Origin: Prolixibacteraceae bacterium
GTDB lineage: Bacteria; Bacteroidota; Bacteroidia; Bacteroidales; Prolixibacteraceae
Length of the DNA stretch: 64,000 nucleotides
NCBI GenBank assembly: GCA_025210775.1
Contig: JAOARB010000001.1
Coordinates: 1-64,000 of the forward strand
Direction of reading: 5' to 3'
This document shows, piece after piece, positions 10,478-61,802 of this stretch; the first letter of the stretch is position 1; the number at the start of each line of letters is the position of its first letter. Below the pieces are notes generated by a model. It was not told where the DNA came from. It was given only the letters and a program-made list of their open reading frames with translations, and made no database searches. A program made the translations under genes and the position numbers.

Positions 10478-10538
10478 TTTATCGTTATGATATTTCATTA
10501 ATGGTATCCTCTTGGAGCACCATTGATATTATGGTACA

Positions 10539-10577
10539 AAGCAAAAATTACAACAGTTGTAGTTTTTGCTTTTTTTA
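10539..10577 (+). terminator. Terminator after ksgA
   Basis: AAGCAAAAATTACAAC (10539-10554) and GTTGTAGTTTTTGCTT (10556-10571) form a 16-bp stem with one G-T wobble, followed by a T tract. Confidence 0.8.
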
Positions 10578-10860
10578 TTCTTAGGATTCTTATCAAAACA
10601 CGGTTTCATAAAATTGAGTGAGTCGTTTTTTGTTTTCCTAATTAATGATGGTCTGATCGATTGTTAAATATGGTTGAAAATAAGTTTATGATAGTCTAAT
10701 CGAAAATAGGTTCGGCTTTTTGTTTTGCTTATGGTGTGAGGTAGGGTTTGTTTCTAAGATTTAGACGGCAATATTTTATTTGTTTACCCCATATATAATG
10801 TATTATCGACCTATTTTAATTTGCTCCTTTTCATGAGACCATTTGCAGATCTGTAAATCT
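10578..10860. other. Non-coding AT-rich spacer before repeat copy 1
   Basis: No ORF with coding character, tRNA or clear stem-loop is seen here. It forms the left part of a gene-free kilobase between ksgA and purH. Confidence 0.5.
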
Positions 10861-11130
10861 CTAATATTACTTAACTCTATATTAAGCTCATTTTAACGCA
10901 ATATCTAAATTACCATAATTTCATTTTGTTCTTGTATCGAGTTCGCTTTATCCTCATATCAAGTTCATATCAAGTTCATTCTAACATAACGTATAAATGA
11001 ACTTGATATGAAGTTAATATGAATTTGATATGAAGTTGTAGTGGTTTTGACCTAAAGTGGATGTCAACAGGTAGTGATGTTGATTTAGTTGAATAATGGT
11101 GTTGTAGTAAACATAAGTAGGATAAATCCT
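10861..11130. repeat. Dispersed GAANTTGATAT element, copy 1
   Basis: The core is 10954-11038: two inverted 11-nt units on the left (ATATCAAGTTC twice), the spacer ATTCTAACATAACGTATAAAT, then direct units GAACTTGATAT, GAAGTTAATAT, GAATTTGATAT and a partial GAAGTTG. The flanks are also shared with copy 3: ATATTACTTAACTCTAT, then TACCATAATTTCATTTTG on the left, and GAATAATGG followed by AAACATAAGTAG on the right. The copy lies between ksgA and purH. It encodes nothing. Confidence 0.8.
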
Positions 11131-11500
11131 TTGTTTCAAAAGGGAAATGCAAATCAGTAAGCCTTGATGTGTGATCTATTTTTATTTTTTTTTAAAAAGA
11201 AATTTCATCTTAGATGCTACTTGTTTTAGGTGTTTAGATGTTTTGGGTGATAATATAGAATAGGGATAGATTGGTGATAAAATAGTGTCATTAAACTTCT
11301 TGATGAAAGAGATGGTTGAAAAAAGTTGAATAGATCGGATTGTGATTTGTTATTACGGTTATTGATCCAACTTCTCTTAATGATTAGTTAATAAACGGAT
11401 GTTTTGTTAATTATTTGTTTGGTGTTGATATATAGTGGTTTATCTCTGTTTTTTTGCTCTGTTTACAATTACTTAATACGTGAATACGGATTTAAAGTTG
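11131..11500. other. Non-coding spacer between repeat copy 1 and the purH promoter
   Basis: This is AT-rich sequence with many stop codons in all frames. I see no gene or convincing structure. Confidence 0.5.
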
Positions 11501-11508
11501 TATTTTTG
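11501..11508 (+). promoter_or_regulatory. -7 box for purH
   Basis: TATTTTTG fits TAnnTTTG, 24 nt before the purH start codon. A good -33 box is not visible at 19-nt spacing. Confidence 0.45.
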
Positions 11509-11531
11509 AGTATCACTTAAAAAACCTAAAG

Positions 11532-35775: not shown

Positions 35776-36067
35776 CTGTTCTATTCGATTATCTTAATTA
35801 TAGTAAGAACAAATATCGTGAATAATTTCCGCAATTATCAAATTGAATAGATTTGTTCCTAAAAAAAAGTAAAATAGAAATAGAGGAAGCCCCAAATCGA
35901 CACAAAATGTCACTCTTCATTGGGTTGAACTCTTATTTTGTATCTATGTCATATTGGCATGTTTGTGCTTTCCTTTGGATGGTGTTTTGTTGTACATAAT
36001 CCTCAATTAAGAGAATGGTACTCATGATTCTGATAACCTATTTGCCACAATTTTAGACGGTCCCCTC
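35776..36067. other. Non-coding divergent spacer left of repeat copy 2
   Basis: This is the gene-free left part of the 0.8-kb divergent region between lysC and apbE. A possible minus-strand promoter lies near 35810. I see nothing else. Confidence 0.45.
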
Positions 36068-36268
36068 CAAATATTACTTAACGTCGTTATAAGGCAATAT
36101 TAAACCTATTTTTTGGCCTGATTAAACTCATATTAACTTCATATCAACTTCACTCTAGAGTAAAGTTGACATAACGTATAAATGAACATGATATGAAGTT
36201 GATATGAATTTGATATGAAGTTGATGTGAATTTGAAACATAATTATAGCGAATTTGATATGAACTTAA
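36068..36268. repeat. Dispersed GAANTTGATAT element, copy 2 (most units)
   Basis: ATATTACTTAAC begins the similarity. Inverted units stand at about 36128-36155, the core ACATAACGTATAAATGAAC at 36170-36188, then direct 11-nt units GAACATGATAT, GAAGTTGATAT, GAATTTGATAT, GAAGTTGATGT, GAATTTGAAAC, and, after a short gap, GAATTTGATAT plus GAACTTA at 36251-36268. It is a shorter and more diverged copy on the left than copies 1 and 3 but has more repeat units. It lies between divergent lysC and apbE. Confidence 0.75.
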
Positions 36269-36519
36269 AAATTATTGATGGGGTGTTTGGATGCCTTTTT
36301 TCTGCCTTTTTCACACCAATTTTGAGATAATAAAGCTTTGTTTTTTGTACTTGAGAAGTATGTGAGAGAGATAATTAACCTCTGAAGGATTTATTTAAAG
36401 AAGTAAAGTGTCATATACATATTTTAAAATTTCATTAAGATAAAGTACATGTCAATTTGTCTATTTTTGCCTTAACTATTTATTCAATAAAAATGAGATG
36501 TGAATAAGATGAATATCTT
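36269..36519. other. Non-coding spacer right of repeat copy 2
   Basis: AT-rich, no ORF of coding character, no clear hairpin. It leads into the apbE promoter. Confidence 0.45.
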
Positions 36520-36527
36520 TACCTTTG
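36520..36527 (+). promoter_or_regulatory. -7 box for apbE
   Basis: TACCTTTG matches TAnnTTTG 42 nt before the start codon. The -33 region (GATG) is poor. Confidence 0.45.
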
Positions 36528-36569
36528 CGCTGTAAAGAAAAATGGAGATCAAATTAATACTATATTTCG

Positions 36570-60862: not shown

Positions 60863-60927
60863 ACTAATGATATTTCATGGGACTATAAGAATATTCTATT
60901 CTTTGTTGTCATCCAAATAACGATAGG

Positions 60928-60970
60928 GGAGCATCGGTGCTATTTAAATAAGCCGATGCTCCTTTTTTTT
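60928..60970 (+). terminator. Terminator after tsaD
   Basis: GGAGCATCGG (60928-60937) / CCGATGCTCC (60953-60962), T8 tract. Confidence 0.85.
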
Positions 60971-61050
60971 GTTTTTATCCCCCAAAAAAGAAGTTGTTTA
61001 CTTTCTTTTATTTGCCCCTTTTTAAGGACAGATCATAGAGCTATATATGC
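60971..61050. other. Short non-coding spacer left of repeat copy 3
   Basis: Contains only T-rich tail sequence after the tsaD terminator; nothing else is seen. Confidence 0.4.
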
Positions 61051-61320
61051 CACATATTACTTAACCCTATATGAAGCTGACTTTATCGTAATATCTACAT
61101 TACCATAATTTCATTTTGTTATTGTATTGAACTTACTTTAAGACCATATCAAGTTCATATCAACTTCATTCTAACATAACGTATAAGTGAACTTGATATG
61201 AAGTTGATATGAATTTGATATGAAGTTGTGGTGTGTTTGACATAGATATGAGGTCAATGGGGTATCATGTAGATATAATTGAATAATGGGGGTGTGTTAA
61301 ACATAAGTAGTGTAAAATCT
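61051..61320. repeat. Dispersed GAANTTGATAT element, copy 3
   Basis: This is closely similar to copy 1 over about 270 nt: ATATTACTTAACCCTAT, TACCATAATTTCATTTTG, inverted units (ATATCAAGTTC, ATATCAACTTC), ATTCTAACATAACGTATAAGT, direct units GAACTTGATAT, GAAGTTGATAT, GAATTTGATAT, GAAGTTG, then GAATAATGG and AAACATAAGTAG. It stands between tsaD and the HYC_CC_PP-like gene. Copy 3 keeps the cleanest 11-nt units. Confidence 0.8.
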
Positions 61321-61743
61321 TGGTTTAGGGGGAGGAGAAAGTGTCTCTATAGGAGTGTGGACATTGTTTCAAAAAGTGAGTAAAAATGCAAATTTAGGAA
61401 TAACCAGAATGCAAAATTAGTTATGGTTATAAGGTTCGAGAGTGTAAATTAAATTCTGTCTGTTTTTTGTAGTAAAATCCAACATGCACTAAAAAAAACG
61501 CATTAGAAGGTGTGTAAACAGTGAGTGTAAAATTAATTCTGTGATATTGTATCAGAGAATGAATGTCGGTTGTTTTATAGCGTTTGAAAGTTGCTTTTGT
61601 CTTTGGAAAAAATGAGTGTTAATGGTGTTATTTTACATAAAAAAGTTCTAATTTGTTATTTTTACCTTATTTATAATGCTTTGTATTTAAGATGATTGGA
61701 TCTTCTTTTTGGGGTAAGGTGCTGAGAGAATGACTTTTGTCTG
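61321..61743. other. Non-coding spacer right of repeat copy 3
   Basis: AT-rich; TGCAAAATTAG-like short duplications occur near 61387 and 61411. A fragment GGTGCTGAGAGAATGAC at 61719 looks like the first part of a TPP riboswitch, but the second half is missing. No ORF of coding character. Confidence 0.45.
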
Positions 61744-61774
61744 TTTAGAATTCATACTTTTTTACCTATTTTTG
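61744..61774 (+). promoter_or_regulatory. Bacteroidota-type promoter for the HYC_CC_PP/TonB-receptor pair
   Basis: TTTA (61744-61747), 19 nt, then TATTTTTG (61767-61774). The -33 box has one mismatch. The start codon is at about 61803. Confidence 0.55.
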
Positions 61775-61802
61775 CCACCATAAGTTACTCATCGTGGCTT
61801 TT

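Follow-up and report, generated by a model that had tools for sequence, protein, structure and literature searches.

Organisation of the repeat in the window

The spacer between rsmA and purH contains a repeat with an 11-nt unit, which raises the question of whether this period marks a helically phased array of protein-binding sites or is the residue of replication slippage. The window is the whole stretch of DNA analysed, 64,000 nucleotides in length, and corresponds to C19:1-64000 of genome G000 (3.75 Mb, 99.5% complete). Tandem Repeats Finder (TRF) reported period-11 repeats at 10954-10979 (100% match) and 10997-11038 (83%), as well as further arrays with the same unit at 36182-36235 and 61188-61228; its list for the window consists of the period-11 arrays of these three elements and nothing else. 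The motif TTGATATGAANTTGATATGAA, with up to three mismatches, matches the window 13 times against 0.05 expected. A scan for self-similarity at lag 11 yielded three matches in the window, whereas 100 dinucleotide shuffles averaged 0.01. Thus, the 11-nt repeat that a sequence-only reading had placed at 10954-11038 is confirmed by TRF, motif matching and the lag-11 scan.

The same reading described the units as direct throughout, which is correct for 10997-11038 but not for 10954-10979. Because the latter segment is an inverted arm, element 1 is a dyad around 10980-10996, a feature that had been missed, as had the genome-wide lattice described below. The units, TTGATATGAAn, are directed outward from the centre, TCTAACATAACGTATAA, and an inverted repeat pair connects 10935-10968 with 10997-11030. 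The lag-11 autocorrelation profile shows that the period-11 signal fades outward across ~120 bp on both sides. The array centres are asymmetric and either 17 nt or 28 nt long (Table 1).

Table 1 Array elements and the spacers that contain them, in window coordinates.
Feature	Position	Strand	Basis or remark
Gene-free spacer rsmA-purH, 1,054 bp, with element 1	10478..11531	.	ORF map
Element 1, subfamily A, conserved stretch ~270 bp	10855..11124	+	Alignment of 22 copies; genome copies 74-82% identical
Element 1 left arm, 2.4 inverted 11-nt units (TCATATCAAGT)	10954..10979	-	TRF, inverted repeat
Element 1 asymmetric centre TCTAACATAACGTATAA	10980..10996	+	CATAACGYATAA kept among copies
Element 1 right arm, 3.8 direct 11-nt units	10997..11038	+	TRF
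Element 1 right-hand conserved motif TAAACATAAGTAGG	11108..11121	+	128 or 117 nt from centre start
Gene-free spacer, 794 bp, with element 2	35776..36569	.	ORF map
Element 2, subfamily B	36121..36235	+	Three parts: left arm, centre, right arm
Element 2 left arm	36121-36153		
Element 2 centre, 11 nt longer than A centre	36154-36181		
Element 2 right arm	36182-36235		
Gene-free spacer, 931 bp, with element 3	60863..61793	.	ORF map
Element 3, subfamily A	61045..61314	+	Alignment with other A copies
Element 3 left arm	61143-61169		
Element 3 centre	61170-61186		
Element 3 right arm	61187-61229		

All three arrays of the window are members of a family, A/B, for which DNA, pattern and profile searches found 57 copies in G000, 23 of subfamily A and 34 of subfamily B. 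Conservation in A spans ~270 bp, includes motifs near both ends and drops beyond about -125/+145 of the centre. The hexamer ATAAGT is common to the A centre (GYATAAGTGAAC, 10984-10996) and the right-hand motif (AACATAAGTAGG, 11108-11121), and the left-hand motif, TTACTTAA, reads TTAAGTAA when inverted; the ATAAGT-type motifs of subfamily A possibly represent one further putative binding site type.

Copies differ in length mostly by multiples of whole 11-nt units. The B centre exceeds the A centre by 11 nt, that is, by one unit, and in A 128 or 117 nt separate the centre and the right-hand motif in 22 of the 23 copies and 145 nt in the remaining one. The number of units per array ranges from 2 to about 10, hence tandem expansion also occurs, and perfect units are present in some copies (for example, L030 and C31:233268-233471). 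Unit variants in the alignments are limited to TT-R-W-W-R-TGAA. The exact 11-nt phase together with these restricted variants favours the assembly of protein along one face of the helix. The variable bases had been read as following the fixed order C, G, T, G. Copies 1 and 3 keep this order, as does copy 2 with the substitution GAACATGATAT that had been pointed out, but an alignment of 54 copies shows fixation at positions one and two alone (C and G, each in 52/54); T is found at the third in 16/54 and G at the fourth in 37/54. The fixed order was therefore partly an artefact of viewing three relatives.

Array families in sister species

DNA, pattern and profile searches of three same-genus genomes, in which RsmA is 87-88% identical to that of G000, revealed nothing comparable to the A/B sequence, and viral contigs contain no exact match to the unit patterns of A/B or of family C described below. 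The best named hits of RsmA are 56-65% identical. The first impression, that A/B is a species-specific mobile repeat, was corrected by the orthologous rsmA-purH spacer of genome G002 (777 bp), which carries a different 11-nt dyad array, GGTTAGGGTTTGGTTACTC-TAAG-AGTAACCAAACCCTAACCAAACCCTAACC. A sequence-blind lag-11 scan of G000, G002 and G003, covering 1.12 Mb, detected 32 arrays; control lags between 7 and 16 other than 11 gave 0-4 matches each in the same 1.12 Mb, and 0.52 Mb from five other genera of the family gave one match at lag 11. Among the genomes sampled, the arrays are restricted to one genus.

The family that occupies G002, termed D, has the unit GGTTACCCTTC, and D-related arrays with the centre CCTCCACACGACAAAAAGG occur in G003. 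D units in G002 arrays (e.g., the arrays L239 and L245) read GAAGGGTAACC or AAACCCTAACC, with GGG or CCC at one position; the middle three bases are flipped, and TAACC and AA are constant. Family C, with the unit GTCCATGGTTT and the centre CATCGA...TCGATG, is unrelated to A/B in sequence yet has the same 11-nt dyad design. It is present in all four genus members, with 65 copies in G000, and is almost absent from 57 other genomes. In one C-family array of G000 (C31:233268-233471), two units alternate as a 22-nt dimer (TTTATGCATGG TTTCTCCATGG), which indicates that tandem expansion was recent. Across the four species, the 11-nt dyad design is common to families with unrelated sequences. The earlier suggestion of a cooperative, helically phased array is indirectly supported by this recurrence in unrelated families, by the exact 11-nt period and by the whole-unit steps in length; the binding itself is a prediction.

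Sharing of individual sites was found for three of ~8 mapped A/B elements with G002 and for one with G003, which is not significant against a null in which any long spacer may host an array (P about 0.24). As this conservative null is not rejected, positional conservation between species is suggestive only. In G002 the spacer orthologous to that of element 3 is ~150 bp long and array-free, from which it follows that single sites come and go. An unrelated array is located in G003 ~125 bp past the ortholog of the left gene of element 3. The rsmA and purH genes are adjacent in G000 and G002; in G003 a distance of ~53 kb separates them, and the site of element 1 is therefore not kept there.

Spacing along the chromosome

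The 122 arrays of G000 (57 A/B and 65 C) define 94 within-contig intervals of 13.7-62.7 kb, with a mean of 27.9 kb and a CV of 0.40. No interval is shorter than 10 kb, compared with 28 expected, and random choice among long spacers reproduced this regularity in none of 50,000 trials. C sites closer than 10 kb to an A/B site are absent, against 17 expected and a minimum of 6 in 5,000 trials. Because C avoids A/B by more than 10 kb, the unrelated families obey one spacing rule, which is the strongest evidence that they have a common role at the scale of the chromosome. Some C arrays of G000 are found near contig ends (C2:146-252, C12:67305-67411 and C30:2166-2270); assemblies may break at such repeats, and this genome may therefore contain slightly more arrays than were counted.

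The chromosome of G002 is complete, and its site set comprises 67 D and at least 26 C arrays among the matches listed. C matches with three mismatches are outside this set, and the gaps in G002 are therefore upper bounds. The 93 sites listed are distributed around the whole chromosome with a CV of 0.46, compared with a random minimum of 0.69 in 20,000 placements, and among the matches listed two intervals fall below 15 kb against 25 expected. C arrays alternate weakly with the other family (P about 0.02-0.03): G000 has 57 mixed neighbours versus 49.5 by chance (P 0.03), and G002 has 47 runs versus 38.4 among the matches listed.

These distributions bear on whether the repeat could be a neutral product of replication slippage, as the variable unit number and the perfect units in some copies would allow. 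Slippage does not yield inverted arms around a conserved centre or the dispersal of such arrays, nor does it yield an exact 11-nt period in unrelated families or over-regular spacing. A neutral tandem repeat would have no conserved higher-order arrangement, and a dyad, a conserved centre and lattice spacing were found. Slippage is already contradicted by the spacing in G000 and G002 and by the lag-11 scan, and can hardly be maintained as an explanation. The argument for selection against simple slippage had earlier been attached to the order of the bases. It is supported by the lattice spacing; the base order is only partly fixed, and the unit number varies from 2 to about 10.

Genomic setting

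With gene boundaries, and hence spacers, set by ORF length only, the array-bearing spacers have a median length of 868 bp versus 112 bp elsewhere (P = 6e-17), and the arrays of the window are located in its three longest spacers (1054, 931 and 794 bp). Non-conserved gene-free DNA extends for hundreds of bp on either side of the arrays, conservation stopping before the spacer edges, and the nearest gene is up to about 600 bp away. The flanking genes may be convergent, divergent or codirectional; 17/53 A/B arrays lie between divergent genes and 12/53 between convergent ones. Since the flanking genes run in every orientation, the arrays are no ordinary promoter element. Tandem 11-bp direct units are nevertheless typical of some regulators, and the arrays between divergent genes are those expected if an ordinary transcription factor controlled adjacent genes through operator arrays of the PhoB/OmpR type. 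The arrays between convergent genes, the distance of up to about 600 bp to the nearest gene and the even spacing, which regulons do not have, make such operators improbable.

The two arms of an array complement each other, with 81% of cells paired in A, as would be required of a transcribed hairpin serving as a long terminator, an attenuator or a small RNA, and in family D the arm-to-arm correlated, two-sided changes exceed those of shuffles. In A, by contrast, no arm-to-arm pair covariation beyond shuffles was detected. Rfam 15 gave no matches in the window above the gathering score, the arrays occur alike between convergent, divergent and codirectional genes, and a lattice of ~28 kb is not expected of a hairpin RNA, which we regard as very improbable. 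The correlated changes in D may possibly reflect a structural component of its arms or exchange between them. The whole-unit length differences, together with the lack of arm covariation in A, speak for phased binding of protein rather than for RNA or slippage.

Comparison with known systems

Most likely, the arrays function like matS or parS sites, yet they appear to belong to no system tested. The 13-bp matS motif is found 23 times within 800 kb in the Ter macrodomain of E. coli, at intervals of about 35 kb (PMC3330122). The arrays resemble it in being dispersed over many sites per chromosome at a comparable density, and an organising role would be analogous. In contrast to matS, a single motif confined to Ter, they are multi-unit, ~80-270 bp long and chromosome-wide, and fall into several unrelated families. 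MatP (PF06303) was found in none of the four genus genomes, with a positive E. coli control. At the unit level the closest parallel is ParR-parC, which likewise uses 11-bp direct-repeat units: ParR of plasmid R1 needs at least two of the 11-bp repeats (PMC9426499), and parC has ten repeats according to the title of Dam and Gerdes 1994, as cited in PMC9426499. Type II partition sites of this kind are defined by direct repeats of about 10-20 bp next to parM/parR on a replicon. However, parC is one plasmid locus beside the par operon, whereas the arrays occupy ~120 chromosomal sites and consist of two inverted arms around a centre; element 1 of the window has rsmA and purH as neighbours.

The sites of Noc, SlmA and ParB are short single palindromes and are not known to be spaced as a lattice; the multi-unit arrays differ from them. 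The resemblance lies in the many dispersed sites that these nucleoid-associated cell-cycle proteins possess (PMC4726725, and general knowledge). Integron attC sites were considered for the ACTTAAC and GTTAAAC motifs and were dropped, the copies being ~28 kb apart and without a cassette array.

REPINs are inverted pairs scattered through extragenic DNA, where several families exist side by side; they are tied to a Y1 transposase, and their distribution in extragenic space is random (PMC3116915). The arrays also have inverted arms in intergenic DNA, but their arms are made of tandem 11-nt units, their spacing is over-regular and G000 is without a Y1 transposase. By analogy, the arrays could be non-autonomous mobile elements (REPIN- or MITE-like) served by a transposase in trans and spaced by target immunity or by selection against close copies. 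Their dispersed, intergenic and dyad-symmetric nature and their subfamilies agree with this, as do the array-free orthologous spacer in G002 and the conserved motifs near both ends of A. However, the Y1/RAYT transposase (PF01797) is absent from the 99.5% complete G000; it is also absent from G001 (77% complete) and is represented once in G002 and twice in G003. Moreover, the immunity of one transposase would not readily give a mutual exclusion zone between families with unrelated units, and conservation ends before the borders of the spacer are reached, with hundreds of bp of non-conserved, gene-free DNA on either side. A mobile element is thus unlikely, though it deserves consideration.

A proposed chromosome lattice

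The dyad architecture, the exact 11-nt phase, the gene-free setting and the over-regular spacing across unrelated families are seen directly. On balance, the arrays are probably cooperative protein-binding sites that jointly form a nucleoid-organising chromosome lattice. From the arrangement of the sequences we infer protein binding, cooperativity, a chromosome-organising role and co-evolution, which may be combined as follows. Each array would be a putative cooperative site for a sequence-specific DNA-binding protein, which would nucleate at the asymmetric centre and load outward both ways along a single face of the helix, each 11-bp turn taking up one protomer or dimer. The ~100-120 sites, about 28-48 kb apart, would then constitute a lattice over the chromosome that serves to anchor, bridge or segregate the nucleoid. 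In this single lattice two types of site would coexist (A/B with C in G000, D with C in G002), and the unit sequence would turn over between species along with the cognate protein. Nucleoid anchoring, bridging or segregation is favoured by the lattice, the gene-free setting and the indifference to gene direction. The unproven site sharing, the empty element 3 site in G002 and the arm correlation in D count against this reading.

A more specific proposal, which we offer tentatively, is that one Bacteroidales genus may possess an undescribed chromosome-organising system with two interchangeable classes of dyad array, evenly spaced chromosome-wide, which would act as distributed anchors or as a distributed centromere, with a separate fast-evolving protein recognising each class.

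We know of no evenly spaced landmarks over a whole bacterial chromosome, and a limited keyword search of the open-access literature found no evenly spaced chromosome-wide sequence landmarks. That the repeat belongs to ~120 two-armed arrays placed about every 28,000 bases suggests that a system not yet described demarcates or organises the whole chromosome. Maps already exist of the sites, of their spacing and of the natural exchanges of unit sequence that distinguish sister species; should a nucleoid protein bind the arrays, the setting of domain size and the segregation of bulk DNA in bacteria would become directly testable. A layout that is conserved while its site sequences turn over would be a bacterial parallel to the co-evolution of centromeres or to that of the PRDM9 type.
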